From positions 6,621,646-6,685,645 of the forward strand of contig NZ_KB217478.1 in the NCBI RefSeq assembly GCF_000331305.1: a stretch of 64,000 nt of DNA. Reading direction: 5' to 3'. The position numbers and the translations under genes are program-made. Position 1 is the stretch's first letter; each line of letters starts with the position of its first letter. Below the pieces are notes generated by a model. It saw only the letters and a program-made list of their open reading frames with translations. It made no database searches and had not been told where the DNA came from. Below are positions 1 to 64,000 of this stretch, piece after piece. Source of the stretch: Calothrix sp. PCC 7103 (GTDB taxonomy: Bacteria; Cyanobacteriota; Cyanobacteriia; Cyanobacteriales; Nostocaceae).

Positions 1-541
1 CTATTGTTAACTGCCACGAAATTGAGAGTAATACACCAATAAATACTAAAATTGTAATAACTAGAATTGATACCCGAATGACAGTATTAACAGCACTCGC
101 TGCTTTTCCTAGCTCTGCACTCAAGCTATTAATAGCATCACCAACTTTGGTTTTGACGAAGTAATCTAAATCGACTTCTAACAAGTTTTTTAAACCTGCT
201 TCTCGCATGTCAGTAGTCAATGTTCGTGCAAGTGAACTTGATGTTAAAGTGCTTGCATAGCTAGCAATATTTTTTAATATAATAGTCAATATAATTGCTA
301 TTGCCATGACCAAAGTACGATAATCTTCTGGTACTCGGTCGAAAGGTCGCATTACGATTTTTAAAATATCAGGTGCGTTATTTAATTCAATATCTAGCCC
401 AATAATTTTTAAAACAACTGGTACAATTAGCGTAGTACCAACTCCATTAAATAAGGCGCCAGAAAATCCTAGTAAGAATGTCAGAAGCATCCAACCAGGA
501 TAAGGTTTAGCAAATCTAATTAAAAGTTTAACAGTGGACAT
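1..541 (-). CDS. ABC exporter transmembrane domain (partial, N-terminal part)
   Basis: The reverse strand reads open from an ATG at 541 to the window edge, giving about 180 residues. The first part (MSTVKLLIRFAKPYPGW) leads into a hydrophobic segment, a polar loop and further hydrophobic stretches (MAIAIILTILLKNIASYAS and, near the edge, VSILVITILVFIGVLLSI). This is the pattern of the membrane half of MsbA/HepA-type exporters. The nucleotide-binding half would lie outside the window, so no Walker motifs can be checked. It follows two glycosyltransferases on the same strand with a 41-bp gap, so export of a glycan or glycolipid is a reasonable inference, but the substrate is unknown. Confidence 0.7.
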   Translation of the reverse strand, partial: MSTVKLLIRFAKPYPGWMLLTFLLGFSGALFNGVGTTLIVPVVLKIIGLDIELNNAPDILKIVMRPFDRVPEDYRTLVMAIAIILTIILKNIASYASTLTSSSLARTLTTDMREAGLKNLLEVDLDYFVKTKVGDAINSLSAELGKAASAVNTVIRVSILVITILVFIGVLLSISWQLTI

Positions 542-582
542 TGGTAATAGTTAATAATTACTAGTTATAGAAACCGGGTTTC

Positions 583-1749
583 TTATAGTTTATTGATAAC
601 ACTTGCGAGCGTTTCAGCCATAGTGGAAGTACTATATTTTTCAATACAGCGAGTTCTGGCTTTACGTCCTTTAACGGTTGCAGTATCAAAATCATTGAAT
701 ATGACTTCGATTTGTGCAGCTATTTGTTCGGGTGCTGATGGTTCAACTAAATAACCTGTATCAGCTAATATCTCAGGTATATCACCCACACAGGTAGAAA
801 TCACAGGTTTACCCATTGCCATTCCGTCAGTTAACTTCAGAGGAAACTGCGCGCGTGCGACTACAGTATCGCGCTGTGGTACAACAACAACATGCGCTGC
901 TGCCACAATTTCTGGCATCGCTTCTACTGGCTTTTTTGGTAACTTAATAATCCAACGTCCCCATTTACTAATTAATTGGTCATCGTAATTATCATATGGA
1001 CTGCCACCGACAATTACTAAGCGCAAATCATCACGATTGAGCTTATCGAGTGCTATCAATACGTCTTCGACACCTTTATGCGGACGCGGGGCGCCAGGAA
1101 ACATCAAGATGCGATAATCTGAAAGTCCATACTTAGAGCGACTTGCTTCAGGGTCGTATTTATCTGGGTTAAACATCTCGGTATCTTTACCATTTGGTAC
1201 ATAAACACCGCCAAATCTATCCTGAAGAAACTGTGTATCAATAGTTACGCCATCTGCCCACTTGACCAAACTTTCGATCCAATTAATATAAACTGGATGG
1301 TCAGGGAATCTGAGGGCGCCGTTCGATTTGAGAATATCGCGGGCAAATTGTTTGATTCCTGGTTGGTACTTCCAATCAAAACCACCATGCCAACTTAATT
1401 CCCAGTCGTCCATATCAACCAACACTGGACGATGACGACTCAATTTATCAAGCAATGCCACACCAAAGCTAGTTGGTTTTGGCTTTACTGCATAAATCAC
1501 ATCACCCGATAGCTTTTGCCGTAATTGTCGCGCTGACCCAAAAAACTGTGGATAATTACTACCAGCAATAGAAATGACTGGAATTCCATCAGGGGGTATG
1601 GCATATAAATCTTTGCCAAAATTAAAACCGACAACTTCGACTTTATAGTTAAGTTGCTTAAGGACTTGAGCTAGTAAATAAGCTCTAACCGTCCCTCCTC
1701 CAGAGAGGTCGCTAACAACTAATGAAAATTTTAATTGATTATTTGCCAT
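583..1749 (-). CDS. Glycosyltransferase, GT4-like (GT-B fold)
   Basis: 388 residues from the ATG at 1749, chosen because GGGAG lies just upstream; a TTG nine bases earlier would add three residues. The N-terminus carries a glycine-rich loop (SDLSGGGTVRAYLL) and the C-terminal half the donor-binding features of group 1 enzymes: PGAPRPHKGVED near 219 and KLTDGMAMGKPVIS near 306, followed by DIPEIL. It should transfer a sugar from a nucleotide-sugar to a glycan acceptor in the cytoplasm or at the membrane face. It lies 25 bp downstream of a GT2 gene and 41 bp upstream of an ABC exporter, forming an apparent operon. Donor and acceptor cannot be read from the sequence. Confidence 0.88.
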   Translation of the reverse strand: MANNQLKFSLVVSDLSGGGTVRAYLLAQVLKQLNYKVEVVGFNFGKDLYAIPPDGIPVISIAGSNYPQFFGSARQLRQKLSGDVIYAVKPKPTSFGVALLDKLSRHRPVLVDMDDWELSWHGGFDWKYQPGIKQFARDILKSNGALRFPDHPVYINWIESLVKWADGVTIDTQFLQDRFGGVYVPNGKDTEMFNPDKYDPEASRSKYGLSDYRILMFPGAPRPHKGVEDVLIALDKLNRDDLRLVIVGGSPYDNYDDQLISKWGRWIIKLPKKPVEAMPEIVAAAHVVVVPQRDTVVARAQFPLKLTDGMAMGKPVISTCVGDIPEILADTGYLVEPSAPEQIAAQIEVIFNDFDTATVKGRKARTRCIEKYSTSTMAETLASVINKL

Positions 1750-1774
1750 TGCTCCCAACGTGCCTTACTGCGAT

Positions 1775-2800
1775 TTATGTGGACGCTTGTTTACCAAAGC
1801 GCAAAATTTTAGTAGAAATAAAGTCAATTATTTTTTGGCTTCGTGACCCACGTAAGTTTTCATACAGTAAAGACTTCGGTAAAACCATCCGTAGTAAATA
1901 AGCTATAAACAAACCAAACCTACTATTTACTTTAAACTTTCCATTAAATAGTGGAACCGGATAATTTACAATTTTTCCTAATTTAAAAAAGTTATTTATA
2001 TCTTTCTCAATTAAAGTTTGTTCAATAAAATACTTTATTCCTGGCTGAGAATATTTTTTTAACTCATCACTTTTACTGGCCTCAATTTCGTATAGCAAAA
2101 CATAGTAATTTTTCATGTATTCCCAATTGTTAGTTCTATTCGTTTCGTGTTTGGTATAAAAAGTACCAACAATCGGTGTATATATATAATCTATGCCCAA
2201 TGCTAATAAACTGAGCGCAAAATCTCTATCTTGTAAAGCTTTAAGACGGCTATCAAAACATGCAGCTTGCAAAACTTCTTTTTTAATCAACATGCACTGC
2301 TGCAACACAGGAAACGGTGAATCAGCGAGAAAATCAGGTAAAAGTAAACGCTGTTTTAACTCTTCACTACCCAACGAACCGATAATATTTTGTTCACGAC
2401 GGATAATATTTTGGTTGCTATCAAGGAATACGCGCTCATAGTCACAGTAAAGTACAACGTTTTGGTTTTCTAACCCTTCTAAACAACTCAACTGAAACCG
2501 TGTTTTATCTTCGTGAATCCAATCATCTGGGTCTAAACACTGAATCCATTCACCCAAAGCTTTTTCAATACCCAAATTACGCGCGGTAGATACACCACCA
2601 TTTTCTTTATAAAAATATTGCACCCGCTCGTCAGTAGCCATTAACCATTCTGCTACTTCGCGAGTATTATCTGTTGACCCATCATCAACTAAAATACATT
2701 CCAAATTAGTGTAAGTTTGTGCTAAAACACTTTTAACACATTTTTCCAAATAGCTAGCTCGGTTGTAGCATGGTAAAATAACTGAAACTAAAGGAGTCAT
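1775..2800 (-). CDS. Glycosyltransferase family 2
   Basis: 341 residues. The GT-A core is clear: VSVILPCYNRASYL at the N-terminus, VDDGSTDNT (D39-D40) and the metal-binding LDPDDW (D90 to D93). These are the usual GT2 nucleotide-sugar and cation-binding positions. The C-terminal third is not diagnostic. It is the first gene of the minus-strand run that continues with a GT4 enzyme and an ABC exporter, so it probably adds a sugar to a surface polysaccharide or glycolipid. About 280 bp without a gene lie upstream and should hold the promoter. The function within GT2 is not assignable. Confidence 0.9.
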   Translation of the reverse strand: MTPLVSVILPCYNRASYLEKCVKSVLAQTYTNLECILVDDGSTDNTREVAEWLMATDERVQYFYKENGGVSTARNLGIEKALGEWIQCLDPDDWIHEDKTRFQLSCLEGLENQNVVLYCDYERVFLDSNQNIIRREQNIIGSLGSEELKQRLLLPDFLADSPFPVLQQCMLIKKEVLQAACFDSRLKALQDRDFALSLLALGIDYIYTPIVGTFYTKHETNRTNNWEYMKNYYVLLYEIEASKSDELKKYSQPGIKYFIEQTLIEKDINNFFKLGKIVNYPVPLFNGKFKVNSRFGLFIAYLLRMVLPKSLLYENLRGSRSQKIIDFISTKILRFGKQAST

Positions 2801-3079
2801 GGCTAAACCAATCCTAAATCATTAATATTACAGTGGGACTCAGAATTAAATTCATACAAACACATAAAAAATGTAACCTATTTTACCCTGAACCCCTACC
2901 GAGAATGTACCGATAAATTTATCAATATCAGTACTACTAGCTCCTGTAACAAGTAATATCACAGATTGTAACCAGTATATTTGATTTATTTTTTGCTATC
3001 TACCGACTCACCGTCCAGTTATTCCCTGCCGCGTATACGACAGGGCGCCGAACCGTCACGCACTGGCTTATGATTGTGA

Positions 3080-3307
3080 TTACCAGCCAATAAGTCTTAA
3101 TTGACCTGTTTGAATATAGTCAAATATACGATAGATTTGGCGACGTTCTCCGTCACTAACATCGCTATTATTTAATATAATTTCTGTGAGTAAGCTGTGG
3201 TCATTACGACTATATACTCTAGAAAAAATAATTTTATCTACAATTTTTTTTACAGCTACTTCTGATTGATAATCATTTGATTTCATCATTGAAAGTTTGT
3301 GCAGCAT
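3080..3307 (-). CDS. Small conserved-looking hypothetical protein
   Basis: 75 residues. The ATG at 3307 has a strong ribosome-binding site (AGGAGAG five bases upstream), which argues for a real gene. The protein is hydrophilic and probably helical, with no transmembrane segment; the C-terminal half (SDVSDGERRQIYRIFDYI) is reminiscent of short cyanobacterial proteins of unknown function that I recall, but no family name can be given. It is isolated, with 280 and 436 bp of non-coding DNA on either side. A short inverted repeat, CCCTG/CAGGG at about 3024-3045, follows its stop and could be a weak terminator. Confidence 0.65.
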   Translation of the reverse strand: MLHKLSMMKSNDYQSEVAVKKIVDKIIFSRVYSRNDHSLLTEIILNNSDVSDGERRQIYRIFDYIQTGQLRLIGW

Positions 3308-3743
3308 AGCTCTCCTGATTATTAATTATTAAAAAAATAGCAAAATTTGCCCCGCTTATAGTTAAACAGCGTGCGTATAAAAATTTCTTAAATTTAAGTT
3401 AAGACGGTAAACAAATTTTATCGTTTATAAAGTTTATGTTTTGGAATGCCTTTGTGGTATCTTTACAACATAAACCAATAAAAACAATTTTGCTTTATCT
3501 TTACATCATCACCCAGAGAATTTTTACTGATATCTATATTTTTTTAACCGTCCATATAGTAAAAAACACGTATAAATACTATTGCTTTTACCAAAAACTT
3601 GTAAATTATCGGTAATTAGGTGAAGCCAATATAGATTTTTAGCAAACTCTCACAATTAATAGGCACCAGTAACAAAATATAAAAAGATACACCACAAGAC
3701 TCACGACTCACGGACATATTCATAACAAACAGGAGTAAACGAG
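3308..3743. other. Non-coding gap upstream of gloB and the 75-aa gene
   Basis: AT-rich divergent intergenic region. It should hold both promoters. No RNA gene, repeat or convincing ORF was seen; an overlapping open frame on the minus strand is interpreted as chance. Confidence 0.5.
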
Positions 3744-4520
3744 ATGCAGATAATTCGTATACCAGTACTTTCTGACAATTACATTTTTTTGCTTTGGGAT
3801 AGTGTGCGTAAAATAGCCGCAGTTGTTGACCCTGCGGTAGCAAAACCAGTTTTAAATAAACTTCATGAATTAGAAGGCGCCGAGTTGGTAGCTATTTTCA
3901 ACACACACCACCACAGCGACCATGTAGGAGGAAACCGTGAATTAATTACCCACTACCCCAACGTAACAGTTTACGGCGGAGAGTCAGACTCTGGACGTAT
4001 TCCGGGGCAAAAAGTCTTTCTTCGTGAAGGAGACTCTGTAGAATTTGGCGATCGAACTGGCGCCGTGTTTTTTGTTCCTGGACATACACGCGCTCACATC
4101 GCTTATTATTTCCCACCTGTCACCCCAGACGAAACAGGCGAATTATTCTGTGGTGACACACTATTTGCAGGTGGATGCGGGCGCCTGTTTGAGGGAACAC
4201 CAGCGCAAATGGTAGATTCTCTCAGCAAAATACGGACACTACCCGATAACACTCGTGTGTGGTGTGCCCATGAATACACTCTTAAAAATCTTCAGTTTGC
4301 CCTTAGTGTCGATGGTAACAACCAAGATTTACAACAGAGGTATACAAAAGTACAAGCTTCCCGCAATCAAGGGGAAGCCACAGTACCTTCACTATTAGGT
4401 ATAGAAAAACTTACTAACCCATTTTTAAGATGGGATATACCCGCATTACAAACAGCCGTAAAAACTCGCGAGCCAGTACAAGCATTCGCACGTCTACGCG
4501 GAATGAAAGACACATGGTAA
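3744..4520 (+). CDS. gloB: Hydroxyacylglutathione hydrolase (glyoxalase II)
   Basis: 258 residues, the usual length for glyoxalase II. The metallo-beta-lactamase metal site is present as T54-H55-H56-H57-S58-D59-H60 (THxHxDH), with further ligands in [11 protein letters not shown] and LFCGDTLF, and [11 protein letters not shown] in the C-terminal substrate domain. It hydrolyses S-lactoylglutathione to lactate and glutathione in methylglyoxal detoxification, in the cytoplasm. The ATG has AGGAG upstream. It is monocistronic and convergent with a GT8 gene, separated by a long perfect inverted repeat that probably terminates both transcripts. Confidence 0.94.
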
Positions 4521-4583
4521 TAAGCACTTTAGTGCTTTCTTAGTGCTTTCTTAGTGCTTGTCAAGAAAGCACTAAAGTGCTTA
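4521..4583. terminator. 21-bp perfect inverted repeat between convergent genes
   Basis: The arms at 4521-4541 and 4563-4583 are exact reverse complements, built from the unit AGCACTTTAGTGCTT, with extra copies of TTAGTGCTTTC in the loop. It lies between the stops of gloB and the GT8 gene, so a bidirectional terminator is likely. The same AAGCACTTTAGTGCTTA core recurs after bgtB (35209-35226). Confidence 0.65.
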
Positions 4584-4594
4584 GTACGAAACCC

Positions 4595-5548
4595 CTAAGA
4601 AGCCTTAATCAAAGACTTAACTTGCTTTTTAAACGAGCCATAAATATTTTGAAACACAGCCATTTGTTTCTGCCGACGCTTTTTAGCAGCTTGCTGTACA
4701 GACCAGTTAGACCATATAGAGTTGTCGAGATATTCGTAAAATAATTCCTTCTGCGGGTGGTTACAGTTATCGTTCCAAGGTTTTTCGCGCGTTGAGTAAT
4801 GGATAATATATGGATGGTTGAGCAGGTTATTATATTCTTCTTCACTGAATGGGCTTTCTTGCCATGAACCAAAACGGAACAAATAAGGCATTTGGTTCCA
4901 ACGCGCGTCAAGTTCTCCCCATTTCCCTGCTAAAATTGCGTTTAACCCATCTTGGTCGAACCAGCGCACGTACTGTTTATAATCGTTGAGATATTTAATA
5001 ACTTCCAAACTTGTATTATCTTGGCGCCATTTTTTCAAATTCAATACCAATACACCCGAATTGAGATATTTACAATCAGCAGGTATACCGAGTTCTTGAT
5101 AGTTTACTAAACCGCGTGGAGACGAAACTAATGGGGCGCCCATGTCTTGCACTGCTAGTAAATAATTGTCTTTTATATCCTGCTGCCACAGCGCTTCAAT
5201 GTCACTACGAACTATTACATCGCTATCTATATAAATTGCTTTTTCAATATTTGTAGGTAAAATTGCTGGAATCAAAAGCCGATAATAAGCAGCTATTGTT
5301 ACAGTCGAAGAAATTTGCATGTTCTTGAACTGCGACCTGCGCGCTTTTATCCAAGTGACTTTGACCTGCTCAGATTTAAGATTTTGAATTATCCGCTCTT
5401 TATTAACTTTGCTAATTCCACCGTCAATTATATATAAAGACAAATTCTGCGGATTTCGCATACTCGCAACAACCGAACGAGTAGTCGCTGCCAAAGGCAT
5501 TGAGTAGTTATCATCCGCAGCACATACTAAAACTATAGAGTTATCCAT
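4595..5548 (-). CDS. Glycosyltransferase family 8
   Basis: 317 residues with the GT8 layout: an N-terminal nucleotide-binding strand (IVLVCAADDNYSMPLAATTRS), the DxD metal site in KAIYIDSDVIV (D108-S-D110), then YLNSGVLVLNLKKWR, WFDQDGLNAIL and IIHYSTREKPWN, all standard for LgtC/galactosyltransferase-like retaining enzymes. The C-terminal 45 residues are basic (AAKKRRQKQ), which often mediates peripheral membrane association. It probably adds hexose to a lipopolysaccharide or exopolysaccharide. It is a single gene, convergent with gloB. The acceptor is unknown. Confidence 0.9.
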   Translation of the reverse strand: MDNSIVLVCAADDNYSMPLAATTRSVVASMRNPQNLSLYIIDGGISKVNKERIIQNLKSEQVKVTWIKARRSQFKNMQISSTVTIAAYYRLLIPAILPTNIEKAIYIDSDVIVRSDIEALWQQDIKDNYLLAVQDMGAPLVSSPRGLVNYQELGIPADCKYLNSGVLVLNLKKWRQDNTSLEVIKYLNDYKQYVRWFDQDGLNAILAGKWGELDARWNQMPYLFRFGSWQESPFSEEEYNNLLNHPYIIHYSTREKPWNDNCNHPQKELFYEYLDNSIWSNWSVQQAAKKRRQKQMAVFQNIYGSFKKQVKSLIKAS

Positions 5549-6038
5549 AGATGTTTAATCTTTTGAATTTTTGTAATTTAATTCATATACTGAACAAGAT
5601 AAGCGCAAAAATCGCACGACATCATGGGATAAATACTTAATTGGTTTTAAAATGTGATACTAAGAGGAATGTACACACTTTATACCTTTATTCAATGGTC
5701 TCTCAGCTTTTGTATTATTCTTGACATTATTTATTAACATATAGTTGTTTCTTAAGTGGGAGGAAAAGTGACTAATAATCAAAGTAACTTACTAATGAAT
5801 AAACTAATTAACACATTTTAAGGAATACGCCTCTAGATAGATGATTAAAGTATGTATATAAAAACAGTTTTCGTGTACATACTATTTACACGCTAACGTT
5901 ACTTATTTTCTAATGCTCAGTTGCTTATGGTTGCTTGACTGGTTTAGAAAATTTGAATCAAACCGAAGCGCAAAAATTAACTAAAATAATTAACAAACAA
6001 TAGCACAAAAATAATAAACGTTAAGAACGAAAATTCAA
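5549..6038. other. Non-coding gap between GT8 and PAS-Crp genes
   Basis: Divergent promoter region, AT-rich. Only very short chance ORFs were seen (for example 23 codons near 5670). No hairpin repeat of the families found elsewhere was recognised. Confidence 0.45.
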
Positions 6039-7235
6039 ATGGAAAATAAAATGGACACTAATCAGGTAGATATTGAAAAATTTGTTTATCGTACAGAGAG
6101 AATGTACCAGCGCTGGTCGGACTTGCTACATGGAAACGTTAGTCTGTCACCAAGCAAAGCAGAAGTTTTACCCCAAGCTTTAATGGAACTTGGTTCAGCT
6201 TCACAAACGTTACAAATAGCAACTGAGGAGTTATGCCAGCAAAATGAAGAACTCACAGAAACGCGCAATTTACTTGAGATAGAACGTCAACGCTACAAAG
6301 ACCTTTTTGATTTTGCACCCGATGGTTATTTAGTCACTGACTTAGATGGCAAAATTCAAGAAGCTAATCGTGCTTGTTCTCAACTTTTTGGTATTTCCCA
6401 GCAACATTTAACGGGTAAACTAATTGTTAACTTTGTTACATTAGACGATCGTCATAAACTACGGTGTCAAATTGCCAAATTATCCAAAATGCAAAAAGTA
6501 AGTGAAATTATTATATGTTGCCGGAAAAGAGATGGTGGTTTTTTTAATGCAGCTTTAACTGCTGCTAGTATTTGCAACTATCATGGTACAGTGACAGGGT
6601 TGCGCTGGCTAATACGTGATATCACAGAACAGCAAAGAGCAAAATCAACACAACAAAGTTGCGATCTCGATTTATCAAAGAATCGTCCTTTACATAAGTA
6701 CTGTAGACGCGAAGCACTACCTCTTGGAAATGATATAATTTGGTATGTTAATAGCGGTTTAGTCAAACTAAGTTCGCTTTGTGAAGCTGGAACAGAAATA
6801 TTACTAGGGTTAGTAGGGGAAGGAATGGTTTTTGGTGCCAGTCTCACATCTCAACAAATCTATCAAGTAACAGCGATTTCGGATGTTGAACTAGTGCCAG
6901 TTATGCAAACAGAAATAGCTGCTTCCCCAGCTTTGAGCCATGTGATTTTACCCAAAATTAAACAGCGACTACAACAAACCGAATACTTTTTAGCAATTGC
7001 AGGTAGACTCAAAGTAGAAGACCGATTGTGGAATTTATTACACTATTTGAAGCAAGATTTTGGACAACATACTCCAATCGGAACTCGAATTAATATTCGT
7101 TTTACCCATGAGGAACTTGCTAGTGCTTGTTCTACTACTCGCGTTACAATTACCAGGCTAGTTCAATGTTTCCAACAAAAGGGATTAATTAGCTTTGATA
7201 ACAGGCGCCATATCGTAATACACGATACAGTGTAA
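6039..7235 (+). CDS. PAS domain fused to a Crp/Fnr-type DNA-binding module
   Basis: 398 residues. Residues 60-88 are helical and probably coiled; 85-200 form a PAS domain (RYKDLFDFAPDGYLVTDLDG, then CRKRDGGFFNAALTA and WLIRDITEQQR, the S-box end). Residues 225-300 resemble a degenerate cyclic-nucleotide-binding barrel (IIWYVNSGLVKLSSL) that lacks the arginine-containing phosphate cassette. Residues 320-398 are a Crp-type winged helix (FTHEELASACSTTRVTITRLVQCF). It is probably a transcription factor that senses a signal through PAS rather than cAMP. There is no kinase or receiver domain. It is adjacent to an IS element. Ligand and targets are unknown. Confidence 0.85.
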   Translation: MENKMDTNQVDIEKFVYRTERMYQRWSDLLHGNVSLSPSKAEVLPQALMELGSASQTLQIATEELCQQNEELTETRNLLEIERQRYKDLFDFAPDGYLVTDLDGKIQEANRACSQLFGISQQHLTGKLIVNFVTLDDRHKLRCQIAKLSKMQKVSEIIICCRKRDGGFFNAALTAASICNYHGTVTGLRWLIRDITEQQRAKSTQQSCDLDLSKNRPLHKYCRREALPLGNDIIWYVNSGLVKLSSLCEAGTEILLGLVGEGMVFGASLTSQQIYQVTAISDVELVPVMQTEIAASPALSHVILPKIKQRLQQTEYFLAIAGRLKVEDRLWNLLHYLKQDFGQHTPIGTRINIRFTHEELASACSTTRVTITRLVQCFQQKGLISFDNRRHIVIHDTV

Positions 7236-7266
7236 GGTGGGCAGTGCCAGCCCTTTCAATGCGAAC
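7236..7266. repeat. Left copy of a 31-bp inverted repeat flanking the IS4 region
   Basis: Begins GGTGGGCAGTGCCAGC directly after the stop of the PAS-Crp gene. Its reverse complement recurs at 9114-9144 with one mismatch. A shortened relative (GGTGGACACTGCCCACC) is at 37064. Confidence 0.85.
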
Positions 7267-7275
7267 ATTAGCACT

Positions 7276-7306
7276 ACTAGAGCGGTGCCCAAAAGCCGCT
7301 TCTAGT
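7276..7306. other. Hairpin upstream of the transposase
   Basis: ACTAGAGCGG pairs with CCGCTTCTAGT (one bulged base) around a nine-base loop. It may be part of the IS 5' end or protect against read-through from the upstream gene. The role is inferred only. Confidence 0.4.
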
Positions 7307-7367
7307 ATAGATTATTCAGTGCCACATCAAGGTATTCTTGACAATATCAATGTTATGATGCGTCAAA

Positions 7368-8837
7368 ATGTTATCCACAGTGTTTGAGCAATTTGTAGAA
7401 GAAAGTCCCATAAGTGTGATGGCACGAGTTTTAATGGAACGTATTTTTATGCCAGAACGCTTAGATCAAATATTTGAAGCTCACGCGACTATTCAATATC
7501 AACAAGATTTATTGTTTTCAAGCCAAGTAGATTTAATGAGTTTGGTTGTATGTGGGATTCATAAGTCAGTTCATGCTGCTTATAGAGCAAAAGCAATAGA
7601 AAAAATCGTCAGTACAACAGCATTATATAACAAGCTATCTGGAATTGAATTGAGTGTAAGTCAAGCATTGTTAAGAGAAACAGCAAGCGATTTAATGTAT
7701 CTAGTTCAAGCAATGGGTGGAGAACAAGCAGATTTATTGCCAGGATATAAACTTAAATTTGTAGATGGAACTTGCCTTGCGGCAACAGATCACAGACTCG
7801 ATGCCATTCGTGCTTATGCAGCAAAAGCTCTACCAGGTAAGGCAATAGCAATATTAGACCAATCATCAAAATTAGTCACAGATATTTTTCTAGTTGAAGA
7901 TGGTCACGCTCAAGAGCGCGCGTCATTTGACCAAATACTATATGTAGTTAAACCAAAAGAAGTTTGGTGTGGAGACCGCAACTTTTGTACAGCAAATTTT
8001 TTGTATACAATAATATTGAAAGGAGCATTTTTTGTAATTCGTCAACATGGGTCACTAGGATTTAAGGAATTAAGTGAATTAGAGTATTCGGGAGAAACTG
8101 AAACAGGAAAAGTATTTGAGCAGAAAATAGAAATATCATATGAAAGAGAAATCATACAACTCAGACGGGTTGTGGTGAAGCTAAATGTAGCGACGCGAGA
8201 TAATGAATGGGAAATAGCCATTTTTACCAACTTACCAAGTAGCGATGCAAGTGCAGTCGAAGTTGCTGAATTATACCGTAATCGTTGGAAAATAGAAACA
8301 CTTTTTCAAACTGTAACTGAAAATTTTCACGGCGAAATTCAGACTTTAGCTTACCCCAAAGCTGCATTATTCTCTTTTTCAATGGCATTAGTTGCATACA
8401 ATATACTTGCGACTTTACGAGGCGCCTTGGGAAGTATACATGGAGTTAATAAAATAGAAGTTGGGTTGTCAGATTTTTACTTGGTTGATGAAATCCAGGG
8501 AATATATAGAGGGATGATGATTGCTATACCACCACCACAGTGGGAAGTGTTTAGTACATATTCTCTTGGTCAAATAGCAGAACTTTTACAACAGCTTGCG
8601 GCAGGGGTAAATTTGAAACGTTTTTTAAAAGCAACGAGAGGTAAGAAGAAAAAGCGAGAACCTTTAATTGTTGATAGAAACCACCGCCATGTTTCCACCG
8701 CGCGGCTTTTAGAAGCCCATCAAAAAATAAATCTCGAAGTTAGTTATAACAGAAAGCATATTTTTATTAACTGCTTGTTGCACATAACATCTCTGACAAG
8801 ATGGTTATTTTCCATGTCAACTATTTATCAAATATGA
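7368..8837 (+). CDS. IS4-family DDE transposase with a C-terminal extension
   Basis: 489 residues. The catalytic triad is visible: D133 (KFVDGTCLAA), D203 (WCGDRNFCT) and E310 in the Y-(2)-R-(3)-E signature (LYRNRWKIETLFQ). The K that would follow E310 by seven residues is T317. The core appears intact, so the enzyme may be active. In relatives that I recall, the protein ends soon after the HVSTARLL motif (441-448 here), but this frame runs about 40 residues further (to SMSTIYQI) into sequence that looks like flanking AT-rich DNA, suggesting loss of the original stop. The start is uncertain: ATG at 7368 has no clear ribosome-binding site. Confidence 0.9.
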   Translation: MLSTVFEQFVEESPISVMARVLMERIFMPERLDQIFEAHATIQYQQDLLFSSQVDLMSLVVCGIHKSVHAAYRAKAIEKIVSTTALYNKLSGIELSVSQALLRETASDLMYLVQAMGGEQADLLPGYKLKFVDGTCLAATDHRLDAIRAYAAKALPGKAIAILDQSSKLVTDIFLVEDGHAQERASFDQILYVVKPKEVWCGDRNFCTANFLYTIILKGAFFVIRQHGSLGFKELSELEYSGETETGKVFEQKIEISYEREIIQLRRVVVKLNVATRDNEWEIAIFTNLPSSDASAVEVAELYRNRWKIETLFQTVTENFHGEIQTLAYPKAALFSFSMALVAYNILATLRGALGSIHGVNKIEVGLSDFYLVDEIQGIYRGMMIAIPPPQWEVFSTYSLGQIAELLQQLAAGVNLKRFLKATRGKKKKREPLIVDRNHRHVSTARLLEAHQKINLEVSYNRKHIFINCLLHITSLTRWLFSMSTIYQI

Positions 8838-9068
8838 TGTTTTTATCTAAGCAAAAGTTATGAATAAAATTGTATTCTATAAGATGTGTAAATAAGAAAA
8901 CGCATTTACCACTTTGAGAGTTATTGTATTTAATATTCTATAAAAATACCTTATTCAAAAGCAGCTAATGACTTGAGTTTTTAATACATATGCTCATAGT
9001 GCAGCTTGACTAAAGTAGTAGCCTGGTTGAAACAGCAAAAAAGCGTAAATTTAATAAGACTTTCCCTT

Positions 9069-9094
9069 CTGCCATCTGCCATCTGCCATCTGCC
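9069..9094. repeat. Tandem heptanucleotide repeat (CTGCCAT)
   Basis: Three full units plus a partial fourth, of the short-tandem type common between cyanobacterial genes. Confidence 0.8.
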
Positions 9095-9113
9095 TTGCTG
9101 CACTAGTTCGCTA

Positions 9114-9144
9114 GTTCGCGTTGAAAGGGCTGGCACTGCCCACC
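9114..9144. repeat. Right copy of the 31-bp inverted repeat
   Basis: GTTCGCGTTGAAAGGGC onward; reverse complement of 7236-7266 with one mismatch. It lies six bases from the stop of the GH65 gene. Confidence 0.85.
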
Positions 9145-9149
9145 CTACG

Positions 9150-12047
9150 TTACGAAGGTTGTAAAATTAAATTGGTTAACTTAACTTGCAAGTCCTGCCA
9201 GTGAACATTTTCGAGACTGGGTAAAACAATATCAGCTTCTCCTACCCTTTCAGAAGGCCCCAAACCAACAGCTATCATTCCCCCTGCTTTTGCTGCTTCA
9301 ATACCTGCTGCTGCATCTTCAACTACGATACATTCTCTTGGCGCCAACCCAAGTTCTTTTGCAGCAAATAAAAATAAATCAGGTGCCGGTTTTGGTTGTT
9401 GAACACTATAACCATCAGCAATAACATCTATATGTTTGGCTATTCCCAATTTTTCAACTACCGGACGCGCGTTTTTACTGGCAGAACCAAGCGCTATTTT
9501 AATACCCGCAGTACGTAATTCTTCGAGCAAATCTAGCGCTCCCGGTAATAAATCTTTGGGTGAAATATTTTCGATAAATTCTACGTAGTAACGGTTTTTA
9601 CGCTCCATCATTTCTAGAATTTGCTCTTCAGAATAATGCTTATTACCAATAATTTTAAGCAATGATTCACGACGAGATACTCCCCGCAGTTCTTCGTTCG
9701 CTTCGCGGTTAAATGGTAATCCTTCTTCATCAGCGAGTCTTTGCCAACCTAAATAATGGTATTCAGCAGTATCTGTTAATACACCATCTAAGTCAAAAAT
9801 CACGCCTTTAATATTCGAGTTGGAATTATGTAGTGTTTCCATATTTGTTCCTTCTGCTTTCAAGTCAAATTCGTGCCAGTCACCACGCCAATTAATTTTG
9901 AACTGTAAGCGTTTCCAACCGTGAGGTAAATGTGCTGTTGCAACGGGGCCGTTTTCGGTGAGTTTAATACCACCAAAACCAAAAACTACAGCTTGCCATA
10001 TTCCACCCGCACTGGCGCCATGTATACCTTCATGCGCGTTACCACGTACATCTTCGATATCAACCATTGCCGCTTGCATGAAGTTATGATACGCTTCATC
10101 AGTTTTTCTTAAGTCGGATGCTAATATCGCGTGAATTGCTGGGCCAAGTGAGGAACCGTAGGTAATATCAGTACGAGGTGCGTAGTAGTCCCAGTTTTTC
10201 TCTAATATTTCTAATGTGTAAGGAAACTCTTGTGATTCGCGCATTAAGTAAAGTAGCATCAAGACATCGGGTTGTTTTAATACCTGACGTTTATTGGCGC
10301 CTTCGATAGTCAAAATCGTTTGCATCGACTTAGTACGCGGTTCGTAATCAGCCAGATTGATATCTTCGAGTTTAAAAAATCCATCTTGCTGTTCGATGAG
10401 TTTGGTATTGGGGTCGTAAGGAATTACTAAATTCGCGATAATATCTTGCCAACGTAGGCGCCGACTTAGTGTAAGCTGTAGTCTCGTTTCGAGTTCTTGA
10501 GCTTTATCAGGATATTTTTCGCGTAACCAGTCTTGAGTCGCGATAGCTTTTTCTAAATGCCACTGCACCATCCGGTTAGTAAAGGCATTATTATTTGCTA
10601 ACTCGTGATACTCATCGGCGCCTATTACACCGCGAATTTCGTATTGTTCGTACTTGGTGCTATACTCAACGCGACTTCCCCAAAATACTGCTGTGTCCAG
10701 AATAATCTCGGCGCCGTAATCGCGCATCCAATCATCATCACCCGAAACCAACCAATAAGACCATACAGCGTAAACAACATCAGCGCTAATATGGATTTCT
10801 CGGTCACGGCACCATATACGAATATCTTCTCCATATGGGTCATTCGGTGGCAACCAACGCGGTGTTACTTCGTCTCCTGTATCCGCACTTTCCCACGAAT
10901 ACATTGCTCCTTTATATCCGTAGTGAACTGCTTTTCGTCGGGCGCCACCAATTGTATGGTAACGATACGATAGCAAGTTACGGGCTAATTCAGGTTGTGT
11001 GTATATAAAGAACGGCAGGATAAATATTTCCGTATCCCAAAACACATGTCCGCGATATCCAAACCCCGATAAAGTTTTAGCAGCAATGCTTACACGGTCA
11101 TCGTTTGTAGGCGCCGCAATTAACAACTGAAACAAATTGTAGCGAACTGCGAGCGCAGCGCGAACATCTCCTTCAATCGCAATATCGCTTTTATCCCATG
11201 CTTGCTCCCATGCCAAAGAATGTTCCTTTAACAAGGTAGAGTATTGAGGTAAATCAGCTAACTCCTGCTGTGCCGCTTGAACAGGGTTTTCTACATCCCT
11301 CGACGTAAAAAATGTTACTAATTTATCAACAGTAACAGCTTGCCCAGAAGTCGCTTGAAACGAAGTGATGACAGTGGGGTATCCGGGTGGATTGGTCACA
11401 ATAACCGATGCTTCGGCGCCTGAGACATTCATTTCTAGCCCCATACCCAGAGTAATACGCGAGTTACGAGTTCTAAGATTCAACCAGGCAGCTTTAGAAA
11501 TACTTCCCTGGTCGATTAATTCCCAATGGTTAAATCCTTGATTTTCTGGGTATCCGCTGATACTCGCTTGCACTTCAACTAACCCATCAAAATCAACAGG
11601 TTTAATTTGACAGCGTAACGCGGTTACATGCTCAGAAGCTAAACTAGCAAACCGTTCAAATTGTAAATCTACAGTTTTTCCACCAGTAGAACGCCATCGT
11701 ATAAACCGACTTAAAATACCGCGTCGCAAATCAAGCTTTCGTTCATAGCTAATTATCTCACCCCTATCCATCCGAAACCGTTCCCCATCAATTGTGATTG
11801 ATAGCGGCAACCAGTCAGGACAGTTAGCAAGTTCAGTGTAAACAATTGGCACATCATCAAACACACCGTGAAGTAAAGTTGCAGGTGTCGCGCGCGAATA
11901 ACCTTCTTCAAATGTGCCGCGCGTACCTAGATAACCATTACCAATTGTAAATACAGTTTCACGGTGGTGAATTTTATCTGGGTCAAATCGAGTTTCGATT
12001 AATGACCAGTCAGTATAAATAAAATCAAGATTAGTATTTAAATCCAT
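9150..12047 (-). CDS. GH65 disaccharide phosphorylase fused to beta-phosphoglucomutase
   Basis: 965 residues in two enzymes. Residues 1 to about 735 are a GH65 phosphorylase: the N-terminal beta-sandwich (FTIGNGYLGTRGTFEEGY), an (alpha/alpha)6 barrel with FWDTEIF (D338), and the general acid E479 in GADEYHELANNNAFTN. Residues 747-965 are a HAD-family beta-phosphoglucomutase with D752-L-D754 in the VIFDLDG motif, the GSASK loop and VVEDAAAG. GH65 enzymes split maltose, trehalose or kojibiose with phosphate to give beta-glucose-1-phosphate, which beta-PGM turns into glucose-6-phosphate, so the fusion channels its own product. It is downstream of sucrose synthase. The disaccharide specificity cannot be decided from sequence alone. 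Confidence 0.92.
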   Translation of the reverse strand: MDLNTNLDFIYTDWSLIETRFDPDKIHHRETVFTIGNGYLGTRGTFEEGYSRATPATLLHGVFDDVPIVYTELANCPDWLPLSITIDGERFRMDRGEIISYERKLDLRRGILSRFIRWRSTGGKTVDLQFERFASLASEHVTALRCQIKPVDFDGLVEVQASISGYPENQGFNHWELIDQGSISKAAWLNLRTRNSRITLGMGLEMNVSGAEASVIVTNPPGYPTVITSFQATSGQAVTVDKLVTFFTSRDVENPVQAAQQELADLPQYSTLLKEHSLAWEQAWDKSDIAIEGDVRAALAVRYNLFQLLIAAPTNDDRVSIAAKTLSGFGYRGHVFWDTEIFILPFFIYTQPELARNLLSYRYHTIGGARRKAVHYGYKGAMYSWESADTGDEVTPRWLPPNDPYGEDIRIWCRDREIHISADVVYAVWSYWLVSGDDDWMRDYGAEIILDTAVFWGSRVEYSTKYEQYEIRGVIGADEYHELANNNAFTNRMVQWHLEKAIATQDWLREKYPDKAQELETRLQLTLSRRLRWQDIIANLVIPYDPNTKLIEQQDGFFKLEDINLADYEPRTKSMQTILTIEGANKRQVLKQPDVLMLLYLMRESQEFPYTLEILEKNWDYYAPRTDITYGSSLGPAIHAILASDLRKTDEAYHNFMQAAMVDIEDVRGNAHEGIHGASAGGIWQAVVFGFGGIKLTENGPVATAHLPHGWKRLQFKINWRGDWHEFDLKAEGTNMETLHNSNSNIKGVIFDLDGVLTDTAEYHYLGWQRLADEEGLPFNREANEELRGVSRRESLLKIIGNKHYSEEQILEMMERKNRYYVEFIENISPKDLLPGALDLLEELRTAGIKIALGSASKNARPVVEKLGIAKHIDVIADGYSVQQPKPAPDLFLFAAKELGLAPRECIVVEDAAAGIEAAKAGGMIAVGLGPSERVGEADIVLPSLENVHWQDLQVKLTNLILQPS

Positions 12048-12080
12048 CGGCAGTGCTTTCCTTATATCAATAGAGTTAAA

Positions 12081-12191
12081 AGTGCGCTCGTGCTGAGTTA
12101 AGAGTGCGCTCGTGCTGAGTTAATAGTTAGAAGTTAATAGTTAGGAGTTAGGAGTTAATAGTTTAACCTCCCTACTCAGCACGAGCGCACT
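12081..12191. terminator. Duplicated inverted repeat between susA and the GH65 gene
   Basis: AGTGCGCTCGTGCTGAGT occurs at 12081 and 12103, and its reverse complement at 12174-12191, with repeats of GTTAGGAGTTA between. It can form a strong 18-bp stem and probably ends susA transcription or processes a joint message. Confidence 0.6.
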
Positions 12192-12207
12192 CACTACTCT
12201 TTAGTCT

Positions 12208-14616: not shown

Positions 14617-15388
14617 AGTAATATCCTGAACTCTAGTTCGACAATTTATCGCTCTTCATAGTCTATAACTATCATTTAAATACTATGTTGTAGCCTAAAT
14701 AGCCGAGCATTACAAAAGAATGTAAAAATTGAGTAGCTTCTAAGAACGCACCCGTTTTTTATTAACCATTTTTTACATTCATACTACTTACGTTAGCGTA
14801 AATATTCGTTAAATGATTGATTTTTCACACGACTTTACGAGGTTATACCTTAATAAGTACCCCGATATTTAGGTTGATTTTATACATTGCTTATCATAGT
14901 AAGCACTGTTAACTATAGTCCAAACTCAGCTAATTGAACAACCTAAAGTTTGAAGAAATTTTAATATCATAAGGTATTTGCTTTCTGAAGCTTTTGACAT
15001 AAACAAAAAACTTATCTCAGCTAAATATAATACTTTTGATAGATGTTAAAATTTCTATATTAAATTATAAAATACTTCTGTCATAGAAAAGTCCCATACC
15101 AAGACCACAATTTATCAAATTGTTTTGAACCGAAATTAGAGTTAATCTCTACATATCACACTATAACAGCCTTTACATGAGGTGTTTCATAATTGTATCA
15201 GTACAATTAATGTAACTATTGTTGCTATGTTGCCACTTAATTTTTATTAGCCTCATTGAAAATCAAAATTAAATGTAAAGTTTTGTTAAGTGAAGCAACA
15301 ATCTGCCTAAAAGGAAGCTCTTTACACAGAGTAATAAGGAAAAGTATCCGTCGATATCACCTTATCTAGCTGAATCAGGGTGTTGATT
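14617..15388. other. Long divergent intergenic region upstream of susA
   Basis: 772 bp, AT-rich, between susA and a small plus-strand gene. No tRNA-like structure, repeat-family member or ORF above a few dozen codons was recognised. The size suggests regulated promoters on both sides. Confidence 0.45.
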
Positions 15389-15640
15389 ATGTTATTAATT
15401 CGTGATGTAGTTGAACAAGCTCTAAATACTGGCTATTTAACACTAGCCCAAGAAAATCTTTTACGTGTTCTATTGAGAGATAAGTACGAAATAGAAGATT
15501 TAAATGCTTTTATGAGTTTGCAGGAAGCAGCAATGGATGGTTTGGTTAAACAGGAGTCGCGGGAATTATGTATGTTTGAGACAGGTCGAGATATCCATCA
15601 TGGTATTTCAACTGAGCTTGCGGTTCATGCTTGTGTTTAA
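15389..15640 (+). CDS. Small conserved-looking cyanobacterial protein
   Basis: 83 residues from the ATG at 15389; a GTG at 15380 would add MLI. The protein is acidic and helical (IRDVVEQALNTGYLTLAQENLLRVLL, then DLNAFMSLQEAAMDGLVKQESREL), with no membrane segment. I recall similar short proteins as frequent in filamentous cyanobacteria, without an assigned function. A hairpin terminator follows at 15698. No operon partner is evident. Confidence 0.7.
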   Translation: MLLIRDVVEQALNTGYLTLAQENLLRVLLRDKYEIEDLNAFMSLQEAAMDGLVKQESRELCMFETGRDIHHGISTELAVHACV

Positions 15641-15697
15641 TAATTCCAACCACGGTATATTTCTCAAACCATTATGGCGCCATTCGTCCGTAAATAA

Positions 15698-15723
15698 CCC
15701 CCCTTATTAAAGGAGGGCTTTTT
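15698..15723 (+). terminator. Rho-independent-type terminator
   Basis: CCCCCCTT and AAGGAGGG pair with one mismatch around a short loop, followed by CTTTTT. It is placed to end the 83-aa gene transcript. Confidence 0.65.
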
Positions 15724-15865
15724 GATCTAAGTTAATTTGTACTAAATTGCTTACGGATGGTTGTTGCCCAATTCAAATACAGGAATAGTTTCTTGCTCGT
15801 TTTTCGCAGCTTCGAGCCATTGTTGCATAGCAGGAAGCTCCATGCGGACGCATTCTTAAGGATAT

Positions 15866-16330: not shown

Positions 16331-16445
16331 CCGCTCCACCCAACCTACAATGTAAAGAAATATGTGTTTAGTCAATAGCTTTGAATTGGAAGGCTAATAT
16401 TTTTTCCTGTTGCCCCTTTGGGAAAGTAACTATTTTATTTAACTT

Positions 16446-17351: not shown

Positions 17352-17352
17352 T

Positions 17353-17380
17353 AAGTGCTGAGTGCTGAGTGTTCAGCACT
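17353..17380. repeat. TGCTGAG-type repeat with hairpin between rnhA and cruG
   Basis: AGTGCTGAGTGCTGAG followed by TTCAGCACT; it can fold and lies between convergent genes. Confidence 0.55.
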
Positions 17381-17381
17381 A

Positions 17382-18614: not shown

Positions 18615-18647
18615 TGATAAGGAAGTTAGGAGTTAGGAATTATGAAT

Positions 18648-55409: not shown

Positions 55410-55417
55410 TTAAAACC

Positions 55418-62223: not shown

Positions 62224-63609
62224 TTAAACTAATACAGTACCCTTCATAAAATCTGGTTTAGAAACTTGAAAGATTTCTAAAATAGTTGGGGCTATGGAAA
62301 GCAGCGATACCTTATCTTGATGAATAGAGTGTTCACGACTTGGTTTGCGAATCCATAAAATACCATCTGGATGATGCATACCGCTCTTAATATCTTCTAT
62401 TTGGTAAAAAATATTAAAGAATGAAATTGAATGCTCTTTGGTTGCAATATAAAGTGTTGCATTATTCGGCAGTTGACCAAAAATTCCACATCCTGCAAAA
62501 ATTTCTGACCCTTTACGCTTTAATCGCATGACTGGTTGTTTATCCACTTCTAATGCTGCAAGATGCTGTTCTGCTTCAACAGCATCTTGCTCATTTTCAA
62601 ATCGAATGAAAAACTCTTCTGCCATGACGGGGGTACAAACGTAAGCACTCTTAATACCTGCAAAATTAAGCAAATTTTCAAACTTGCGAGGTCTATAGAG
62701 TCGTTTTCCTCCTGTAACCTCGTAGGTGAGGCAGGGCTGTTGACTTAATGCTGTGTTAAGAATTAAAGTTGTATTGTTATCAGCTAATTTCAAGAAATTA
62801 CCTATTAATTTGTCCATTTCCTTATAGCCGAGCAGGACAGCATCTTCGTATTCCATTTGCTCTTGTGCTGAGGGCTTGACATCAAACTTATCTGGCTCCA
62901 TGTTACGCCAGTACATATGCTGAAAGTGAGCTGTGCTATTTAGGAAAAAAGTAGAAAAGTGGGGTTTGAATTTTCGATAGTACCAACAGAATAAATCGAA
63001 CTGAAGCTTATCTGCAATAGTTGCGCGCTGCCAGCGATACTTACTAGTCTTTTTTTCCTGCACAAGTTGCTGAATAATTGCGCCAATAGTAGATATAGAA
63101 AGACCATGTGAAATCATAAAGCCAAGGAAATTCAGGTAATCTACTTGGCTAAAGGGAATAGAGTTATTGGTATGTTCTTGGACTTGCTTTTGTACGAAGT
63201 TAAAGTATGGCAGTAATTCATCAGAATTGGGAGCAATTTTAGTACTCCAGAAATCTGGCATTATATATCCATTTAAGGGCGAGTTATAAGTAACATTCAT
63301 GCTGCCACATACCCAGATCCGCAATCCTGCGTCAGAGAGAACATCCCAAATACACTTCGATTTAAGTTTATGTCCTTCATCAAGAAGAAACACTTGATGT
63401 TCGCTATAAGGAATGCCTGAATGTACTGTCACCCATTGAATCCAAGGTTCTAGTAATGGTGGTTTTTCTTCCGCATCAGTTACGTAAACTTCTGACTCTT
63501 CATAGAACCGCTTGAAGTTGGGTAGCTTTCCTTCTTGAATAAACTGTTGCATCAACGAGGGGGAAAGTTCGTTGAATTCTAAGAAGATAACAGATTTATT
63601 TGTTTCCAT
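62224..63609 (-). CDS. Alkaline-phosphatase-superfamily protein of the polysaccharide locus
   Basis: 461 residues. The start (VIFLEFNELSPSLMQQFIQEGKLPNFKRFYEES) matches the type I phosphodiesterase/nucleotide pyrophosphatase pattern, in which an acidic metal ligand and LPNF follow the first strand. Further markers are WVTVHSGIPYSEHQVFLLDEGHK and, near the end, GMHHPDGILWIRKPS. It lacks a signal peptide. Some members modify glycans with phospho-groups. The metal site cannot be completed by eye. It is followed upstream by a membrane protein, and the surroundings encode polysaccharide synthesis. Confidence 0.72.
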   Translation of the reverse strand: METNKSVIFLEFNELSPSLMQQFIQEGKLPNFKRFYEESEVYVTDAEEKPPLLEPWIQWVTVHSGIPYSEHQVFLLDEGHKLKSKCIWDVLSDAGLRIWVCGSMNVTYNSPLNGYIMPDFWSTKIAPNSDELLPYFNFVQKQVQEHTNNSIPFSQVDYLNFLGFMISHGLSISTIGAIIQQLVQEKKTSKYRWQRATIADKLQFDLFCWYYRKFKPHFSTFFLNSTAHFQHMYWRNMEPDKFDVKPSAQEQMEYEDAVLLGYKEMDKLIGNFLKLADNNTTLILNTALSQQPCLTYEVTGGKRLYRPRKFENLLNFAGIKSAYVCTPVMAEEFFIRFENEQDAVEAEQHLAALEVDKQPVMRLKRKGSEIFAGCGIFGQLPNNATLYIATKEHSISFFNIFYQIEDIKSGMHHPDGILWIRKPSREHSIHQDKVSLLSIAPTILEIFQVSKPDFMKGTVLV

Positions 63610-63650
63610 AGTTGAATATTTTAGTATTGTTAAGCTTTATAAGGTATCAA

Positions 63651-64000
63651 TTACCAGCTACATATTCGTAGTACTTTGTGTCGAAATAATTGATAAGCAT
63701 AGCCAGAAAAGTGAGCAGTGGGCATGGTTATTAAAGCTACTCCACAGAAAAACCAGCGGATCAGGAATGAGGGGTTCTCTTTTTCTTTACTTCTCCAAAT
63801 TTCTGTATTAAAGTTGTTATGAAACTTCAAATTTACCCGTATACTTTCTATGAAAGGCAGTAGCAGACCAAATGGAATAAGTTCTATTGCGGGTACTCTT
63901 AACTGCGGGAATAATAAATCTACAAATAGCATGAAAAGTGTGATAGACATCATTAAAAATGGTAATTGCCCCCTCAATTGCAATTTGTCGGAATGCTTAG
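63651..64000 (-). CDS. Membrane protein, cut by the window edge
   Basis: The minus-strand frame is open from the stop at 63651 to the edge (at least 116 residues; LQLRGQLPF preceded by KHSDK). Two or three hydrophobic segments (FLMMSITLFMLFVDLLF, PAIELIPFGLLLPFIE, FLIRWFFCGVALITM). No motif. It is 41 bp upstream of the AlkP-superfamily gene, likely the same operon. It may begin outside the window. Confidence 0.6.
   Translation of the reverse strand, partial: KHSDKLQLRGQLPFLMMSITLFMLFVDLLFPQLRVPAIELIPFGLLLPFIESIRVNLKFHNNFNTEIWRSKEKENPSFLIRWFFCGVALITMPTAHFSGYAYQLFRHKVLRICSW

Follow-up and report, generated by a model that had tools for sequence, protein, structure and literature searches.

The 64,000-nucleotide stretch of Calothrix sp. 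PCC 7103 DNA analyzed here (hereafter, the window) corresponds to C7:6621646-6685645 in a genome of 11,584,393 bases on 12 contigs, and the element under study is the hexamer GGCGCC, a palindrome present on both strands at each site. A preliminary description of the window had estimated about 100 GGCGCC sites; an exact count gave 100, spanning positions 455 to 61727. About 3.5 copies were expected from base composition alone (39.0% G+C), and 100 dinucleotide-preserving shuffles of the window gave a mean of 5.66 (standard deviation, 2.45; maximum, 14), none of them reaching 100 copies. A maximal-order Markov estimate was 45, the sub-words that enter it being mostly parts of the same sites. Conversely, the palindrome GCGATCGC, highly iterated palindrome 1 (HIP1), had no copy in the window by exact count, and CGATCG, the HIP1 core without its outer bases, occurred twice, at 4049–4054 and 6446–6451, as had been reported by eye. 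The apparent absence of HIP1 thus held for the window but not for the genome, in which HIP1 is scarce (163 copies, 14/Mb).

The 100 sites have their first bases at positions 455, 1090, 1315, 3044, 3876, 4059, 4180, 5023, 5135, 7204, 8421, 9340, 10014, 10296, 10457, 10617, 10710, 10941, 11110, 11415, 12538, 13350, 13752, 14340, 15676, 15956, 16223, 16482, 17799, 17832, 18490, 18707, 19127, 20573, 20797, 21004, 22655, 22683, 22931, 23747, 23924, 24770, 25412, 25793, 25884, 26115, 26264, 26423, 26804, 27101, 28122, 29381, 29600, 29631, 31369, 31831, 32044, 33541, 33784, 34144, 34552, 35336, 36646, 37109, 37478, 37658, 38252, 38573, 38935, 39894, 40104, 40318, 41063, 42383, 43361, 43451, 44857, 44971, 45058, 45259, 45766, 46364, 46389, 46573, 48809, 49544, 50390, 50798, 51966, 52002, 52879, 53121, 53461, 53948, 57156, 57207, 57864, 58891, 60441 and 61722. 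Successive 8-kb segments contained 10, 16, 15, 15, 14, 14, 10 and 6 sites, and 92 of the 100 sites lay inside open reading frames (ORFs) of at least 120 amino acids as called by a crude gene finder.

The same pattern was observed genome-wide. GGCGCC was present 17,704 times (~1,530/Mb), compared with 8 copies of its reversed control CCGCGG, and HIP1 163 times in 11.58 Mb (14.1/Mb), compared with 58 copies of its reversed control; GGCGCC was therefore not near expectation, nor was HIP1 at normal density outside the window. In 784 kb of the PCC 7103 genome, GGCGCC was the most over-represented hexamer (29.9-fold over the composition expectation), followed by words overlapping it and by CGCGCG. 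One-letter neighbors of GGCGCC stood at 0.15–1.76 times expectation in the same sequence, with GGTGCC/GGCACC the highest (1.76), and the other members of the degenerate site GRCGYC were depleted (GACGCC/GGCGTC, 0.27; GACGTC, 0.06). The flanking bases displayed only weak preferences, G before or C after the hexamer being found at about half of expectation and C before or G after at ~1.35, indicating a unit of six rather than eight bases; the octamer CAGGCGCC had a density of 158.3/Mb, calculated as (1,852 + 1,816)/2/11.58 Mb. The proposed spread over genes and gaps was borne out by G+C-corrected observed/expected ratios of 26.0 in ORFs and 29.6 outside them (404 kb including the window). Among coding sites, the Gly-Ala frame (GGC GCC) was favored (290/530), and GGC GCC made up 52% of Gly-Ala codon pairs (290/562), compared with 2.3% expected from the Gly and Ala codon usage of the same ORFs. 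Alternate HIPs, as a class defined after Elhai (2015), are short G+C-rich palindromes with ~500–2,500 copies/Mb, far above expectation. The density and excess of GGCGCC, the low HIP1 count, and the dispersal over genes and gaps all place GGCGCC in this class, as the preliminary description had suggested.

The replacement of HIP1 by GGCGCC in Calothrix PCC 7103 has been known since 2015. In the portions of Elhai (2015; PMC4390886) that concern this strain, GGCGCC is given as its alternate HIP, HIP1 occurs at 14/Mb and CAGGCGCC is the top 8-mer at 159/Mb, and two enzymes are assigned the specificity GrCGyC, with no recognisable GGCGCC-specific methyltransferase. Exceptional HIPs are described there as sporadic and not found in clades, with HIP1 alone persisting, and HIP1 densities of 300–2,700/Mb are listed for the cyanobacteria of its Table 2 (PMC4390886). 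Our data agree with that account in the hexamer, the HIP1 and CAGGCGCC densities, and the two GRCGYC-type methyltransferases. Whereas it covered one genome plus a 19-kb piece (PMC4390886), the present analysis covers seven genomes of a clade, for which conservation, a roughly balanced gain and loss of sites, and a spacing that can be set against the published model were measured, and in which a nuclease partner of the methyltransferase was searched for and not found. Our literature searches, limited to listings of open-licence papers, gave no earlier report of a clade-wide GGCGCC trait. GGCGCC resembles the HIP1 of most cyanobacteria in being a short G+C-rich palindrome with hundreds to thousands of copies per Mb in both genes and gaps, and differs in sequence, HIP1 itself being down to 31–163 copies in each of the seven genomes of the clade. 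Like GGCGCC, the alternate HIP of Oscillatoria PCC 10802, rCCGGy, is a HIP1 replacement tied to a methyltransferase (Elhai, 2015), but that site is degenerate, whereas in the present case enrichment is confined to the fully symmetric GGCGCC, with depletion of the remaining GRCGYC members.

We then counted GGCGCC and HIP1 in an even draw of 388 genomes of the order out of a larger group. Both other genomes of the same genus in the draw shared the swap (G353, 14,889 GGCGCC and 31 HIP1; G380, 15,449 and 88). Conversely, in none of the 68 other genomes of the same family did GGCGCC exceed 530 copies or HIP1 fall below 1,117. Of the remaining genomes drawn, only G059 (9,489 GGCGCC; control, 2,450; HIP1, 74) and G116 (2,365; control, 1,104; HIP1, 1,980) exceeded 1,000 GGCGCC/Mb. 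Five genomes reached through named loci also carried many sites: Dulcicalothrix desertica PCC 7102 (19,393 GGCGCC, 58 HIP1), Calothrix PCC 7716 (20,380, 66), HK-06 (15,449 GGCGCC), C42_A2020_038 (hereafter, C42; 7,475, 147), and NIES-4105 (18,131, 125). Thirteen other cyanobacteria encoding a relative of the clade methyltransferase described below had 1–277 copies. Since HK-06 and G380 had equal counts and are probably the same genome, they were taken once, giving, together with PCC 7103 and G353, a clade of seven genomes. The density of GGCGCC across this clade was ~1,150–1,710/Mb; the six other members contained 31–147 copies of HIP1 and, on rounded genome sizes, ~98–175 copies/Mb of CAGGCGCC. 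These six relatives were syntenic with window positions 1–20000 and, where a larger region could be aligned, 81–93% identical. Thus, the view that exceptional HIPs are only sporadic was not borne out in this Calothrix/Dulcicalothrix clade. Some genomes of another family of the order (f9) had a few hundred GGCGCC/Mb alongside abundant HIP1 (3,403 and 15,293 copies, respectively, in G170), for which composition may account in part; this family is a doubtful second case, one 20-kb stretch each of G170 and G037 containing 8 and 0 sites compared with 5.1 and 2.2 expected, with HIP1 dominant.

Next, we aligned PCC 7103 sequence to the six relatives where they matched, using 204 kb for a comparison with other all-G/C hexamers and 404 kb for codon and turnover analyses. 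GGCGCC sites were kept at 134/152 positions in PCC 7102, 197/237 in PCC 7716, 90/123 in NIES-4105, 130/153 in G353, 144/182 in HK-06, and 26/48 in C42; the corresponding values for the other all-G/C hexamers were 103/200, 158/303, 70/149, 99/177, 113/223, and 12/70. At conserved Gly-Ala pairs, GGC GCC was kept in 94/101 cases in PCC 7102, 202/218 in PCC 7716, 58/66 in NIES-4105, 77/87 in G353, and 119/142 in HK-06, compared with 47/67, 102/152, 17/41, 29/48, and 56/85 for other Gly-Ala codon pairs (p = 0.003 to 3.5e-10 in these five relatives). Excess conservation was also present in the Ala-Pro frame in PCC 7102, PCC 7716, and NIES-4105. GGCGCC sites are therefore conserved beyond the needs of the encoded proteins.

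Sites were also gained and lost. With NIES-4105, or otherwise C42, as the outgroup, the outgroup had the site and the ingroup was mixed at 40 columns, and the reverse pattern held at 36, which suggests about as much gain as loss; among the 36 gain columns, a few lay in stretches where one genome was divergent throughout, possibly through recombination. Columns that could not be polarised comprised 11 where only the outgroup had the site and 20 where the whole ingroup, but not the outgroup, had it. Single-step losses numbered 11, 2, and 23 at palindromic positions 1/6, 2/5, and 3/4, respectively, and thus fell mostly on the inner CpG. Three positions in the window illustrate this turnover. At 15956–15961, PCC 7103 and PCC 7716 had GGCGCC, PCC 7102, G353, and HK-06 had GATGCA, and NIES-4105 had GATGCG, all with near-identical flanks. 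At 37109–37114, GGCGCC in PCC 7103 and PCC 7716 was matched by GGTGCC in G353, GGTATT in HK-06, and GGTACT in NIES-4105. At 36804–36809, where PCC 7103 lacks the site, HK-06 had GGCGCC, with ACCATC in PCC 7103, PCC 7716, and G353 and GCCACC in NIES-4105. Creation of sites by multi-base jumps was considered in view of examples such as GATGCA/GGCGCC. In pairs with conserved flanks, two or more differences occurred at 68/1,489 GGCGCC positions, not above the 399/4,575 of other all-G/C hexamers; for three or more differences, the proportion was slightly higher (24/1,489 vs 47/4,575).

Sequence of apparently foreign origin had fewer sites. Outside the window, 26 HIP1 copies were found in the clade sequence sampled, 16 of which formed two clusters, one of 8 in 3.5 kb of PCC 7103 (L138:4394-7900) and one of 8 in 8.2 kb of HK-06 (L254:9857-18024). 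Within 2.5 kb of a HIP1 copy, GGCGCC had a density of 725/Mb (49 sites), compared with 1,588/Mb elsewhere (3,430 sites). These residual clusters are probably imports from HIP1-type cyanobacteria that have been partly converted. Plasmid stretches carried GGCGCC at 3,200 and 1,120/Mb in NIES-4105 and 1,280/Mb in PCC 7716. The denser NIES-4105 stretch, 50 kb of plasmid2 (AP018292; L309), had about twice the chromosomal density, evenly along its length.

The preliminary description had predicted a GGCGCC methyltransferase outside the window. A profile search of the PCC 7103 genome gave 15 PF00145 matches, among them two HindV-type C5 methyltransferases outside the window, at C7:8004502-8005404 (the L013 type) and C10:143269-144174, which partly bears out the prediction. 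The two enzymes were 59% identical over ~300 amino acids, and a plasmid protein with the annotation "modification methylase HindV" (H7) shared 54.5% identity with the C10 copy. The target of the HindV family is GRCGYC, which includes GGCGCC, and the two enzymes are candidates for the predicted methyltransferase. The C7 gene was flanked by a RuBisCO-like gene and a GHL10 gene, and the ORF maps around the L013-type gene were alike in PCC 7102, PCC 7716, C42, and, apart from small additional ORFs, NIES-4105, and different in HK-06. In a tree of 24 enzymes, the seven L013-type copies of the clade formed one group with support of 100/98. Further HindV-type copies were found on C10 of PCC 7103, on two NIES-4105 plasmids, on a plasmid fragment of PCC 7716, in G353, and, as a tandem arrangement, in HK-06. 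The family was present in 106 of the 388 genomes of the order, with two matches only in G000, G353, G380, and G273. We mapped ORFs at 10 loci of enzyme relatives outside the clade and scanned the neighbors at 8; in 7 of these 8, the HindVP nuclease (RE_HindVP) adjoined the enzyme, in full-length form only at L036 and L046 and as partial genes in the rest. Conversely, HindVP (PF09519) was found in none of the seven clade genomes. The clade system thus resembles the HindV/GRCGYC type II system in its methyltransferase family, which adjoins HindVP in other cyanobacteria, and differs from it in that no nuclease was found and that GGCGCC is enriched rather than avoided. Elsewhere in PCC 7103, another C5 methyltransferase gene was directly followed by a TdeIII-type restriction endonuclease gene (PF09520; L010:1462-3459), and the methyltransferase of a further locus (L009) was 76% identical to that of L010.

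We consider it probable that GGCGCC is the alternate HIP of this clade, replacing HIP1, likely methylated by the solitary HindV-type enzyme and kept by a process that acts per site. The solitary enzyme, a single lineage in the seven genomes, would be the most likely agent of GGCGCC methylation in the cell. New sites would keep arising while old ones are kept, by a process favoring GGCGCC over its one-letter neighbors site by site and holding the density at ~1,150–1,710/Mb; biased repair or conversion coupled to methylation seems likelier to us than selection for a bound signal. It is also fairly likely that GGCGCC replaced HIP1 only once, at the base of the Calothrix/Dulcicalothrix clade, and that the swap has been stable since, together with a vertically inherited, nuclease-less methyltransferase and per-site maintenance; such an origin agrees with the enzyme tree and with the close synteny. 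Our data directly show how often GGCGCC occurs and how it is distributed over the clade, that the enzyme is present and its partner missing, that conservation is raised, that gains and losses are roughly balanced, and that sites beyond ~60–100 bp are independent; the specificity of the enzyme, methylation in the cell, and the nature of the maintaining process are inferred.

Several results weigh against a HindV-type enzyme with per-site maintenance as the explanation. The HindV-type family occurred in 103 of the 385 other genomes of the order, none of them swapped except possibly G059; the 29 carriers of the same family had a median of 5 GGCGCC copies. The presence of the enzyme alone is thus not sufficient for a HIP. 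Within the family, the median was lower in these 29 carriers than in the 39 genomes without the enzyme (5 vs 25; p = 0.006, or p = 0.13 when scaled to the CCGCGG control), a suggestive difference. HindVP was also not found in four of the five non-clade carriers searched (G303, G306, G059, and G136), G273 being the only one to have it; a solitary enzyme is therefore not peculiar to the clade, which slightly lowers our confidence. The target-recognition stretch was similar inside and outside the clade; a search for a clade-specific change in recognition gave three clade-only residues, none of them in the inspected stretch around the recognition core. In addition, a plain GRCGYC methyltransferase leaves the depletion of GACGCC (0.27) and GACGTC (0.06) unexplained; this depletion may be a relic of a lost nuclease or may reflect rapid conversion to GGCGCC. 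The synonymous conservation at Gly-Ala was not significant in C42 (14/20 vs 3/8, p = 0.2), and no Ala-Pro frame excess was seen in G353, HK-06, or C42. Transitions of the inner C to T at GGCGCC (29/238, 12.2%) were similar to those at other CG (10.6%) and other GCGC (15.2%) sites. No clear mark of 5-methylcytosine deamination was seen, as these transitions are ordinary for CpG and GGTGCC stood at only 0.95–1.83 times expectation in the seven clade genomes; the unusual feature is the constancy of the outer bases and not the rate of CpG loss. Finally, tests for precursors disagreed, GGTGCC/GGCACC being converted in 3/7 cases by one polarisation and 0/5 by another (both underpowered), and three other C5 methyltransferases were also common to PCC 7103, C42, and NIES-4105.

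Selection could instead maintain GGCGCC as a bound signal for recombination, uptake, or segregation, independently of methylation. The strong conservation at synonymous positions would fit such a signal, as would the loss of the inner CpG at the ordinary rate with the outer bases constrained. However, a signal tied to chromosome positions is not suggested by the similar ratios inside and outside ORFs or by the plasmid densities of 1,120–3,200/Mb, and the sites were placed independently beyond 100 bp; overall, this explanation is possible and, in our assessment, somewhat unlikely. The placement was apparent from the pair correlation of 2,944 sites in the seven genomes, which was 0.36 at 6–30 bp, 0.74 at 30–60 bp, 0.94 at 60–100 bp, and 0.99–1.09 from 100 to 4,000 bp, indicating independence at the 0.1–4-kb scale. 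In the two shortest bins, 40 similarly abundant hexamers (GGCGCC included) had medians of 1.45 and 1.33, and GGNGCN/NGCNCC words had 1.22 and 1.17. The repulsion below ~60 bp may reflect the instability of close palindromes.

These spacing data also bear on the ratchet published for Calothrix PCC 7103, in which a methylated GC directs mismatch repair, and mutations creating GmeC near a target are kept until a site is present every ~1,000 bases (PMC4390886). The two copies of a GRCGYC-type enzyme and a density (~1,530/Mb) of the predicted order agree with the ratchet. Nevertheless, it predicts no advantage for a new site within ~1 kb of an existing one, and a ratchet that stops at that distance should leave a dip in the spacing, yet the pair correlation was flat from 100 to 4,000 bp and repulsion was confined to distances below ~60 bp. 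The accompanying view that alternate HIPs do not persist was likewise not borne out in this clade. We therefore regard the ratchet in this form as unlikely.

It is similarly doubtful that the HindV-type gene is a bystander and that GGCGCC is really the target of another C5 methyltransferase shared within the clade, of the L011, L018, or L019 type. All three types have counterparts in C42 and NIES-4105, making four C5 enzymes with the HindV type that are common to these genomes and PCC 7103, and L011 lies ~4–5 kb from the HindV-type gene. Conversely, L019-type enzymes are encoded on plasmids of other cyanobacteria (77–78% identity) and an L018-type enzyme on a Nostoc HK-01 plasmid (63%), so neither type is peculiar to the clade. 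A Vsr-like very-short-patch repair that puts C back at deaminated GGmCGCC and, by over-correction, turns GGTGCC into GGCGCC is very improbable. GGTGCC/GGCACC was the commonest one-letter difference at clade sites, as this mechanism would lead one to expect, but Vsr (PF03852) was found in none of the 99 same-family genomes searched, PCC 7103 included, compared with 5 of 14 control genomes, which makes classical Vsr repair unlikely as the agent, and the birth tests disagreed (3/7 vs 0/5); an unrelated enzyme may have a Vsr-like effect. An origin of the count in composition, codon usage, or a local repeat, favored only by the Gly-Ala frame bias (290/530), has next to no probability, being refuted by the shuffles (0/100), the reversed control (8 vs 17,704), and codon pairing (52% vs 2.3%).

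Other words in these genomes also had unusual frequencies. In the window, GATC (26 copies vs 145 by a Markov estimate) and GGCC (9 vs 73) were strongly avoided and CCGCGG and GTGCAC had no copies, and TGCGCA stood at 0.00 of expectation in the 784 kb of PCC 7103; these avoided palindromes probably point to several restriction-modification systems, past or present. The window also contained 17 copies of the 8-mer TGCTGAGT, and short tandem repeats at 42455–42521 and 12073–12163, some with 7-base units such as GAGTGCT. CGCGCG was enriched 6.7–16.7-fold in all seven clade genomes, and GCGCGC 10.7-fold in NIES-4105.

Candidate alternate HIPs were also encountered elsewhere in the order. In G059, 46 kb (L266, L267, and L306) contained CGGCGCCG at 1,059/Mb (33-fold) and CGGCGCTG and CAGCGCCG together at ~1,190/Mb, with CAGCGCTG at chance and 74 HIP1 copies; the motif resembles RGCGCY in which G/C occupies one or both outer positions, apparently a further alternate HIP. 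In 12 kb of G136 (L307; HIP1, 81), ACCGGC/GCCGGT was enriched 14.7-fold and CACCGGCA was the top 8-mer, the pattern reported by Elhai for Oscillatoria PCC 10802. G007 had 134 HIP1 copies genome-wide and none in the 20 kb examined (L313), where GGCCCTGG- and GGCCTGG-like words were enriched ~19- to 26-fold. In G159, the first 20 kb of one contig (L314) carried the non-palindromic octamer GGGCGCTG/CAGCGCCC 21 times, dispersed and divided 10 + 11 between the strands, ~336 times the composition expectation; HIP1 numbered 59 in this genome and 2,053, 1,989, and 2,064 in G013, G172, and G195 of the same genus. If this 20-kb stretch is representative, GGGCGCTG would be a highly iterated non-palindrome and a new kind of alternate HIP.

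The function of HIP palindromes is an open question. A clade with a replaced palindrome, a candidate methyltransferase, close relatives, and ongoing gain and loss of sites allows explanations of HIPs to be told apart, and the data from this clade already weigh against saturation at ~1 kb and against classical Vsr repair. If the swap was indeed a single event that has been stable since, the solitary methyltransferase retained in a lineage would determine the identity of its HIP, and the Calothrix/Dulcicalothrix clade would represent a natural experiment on HIP function.

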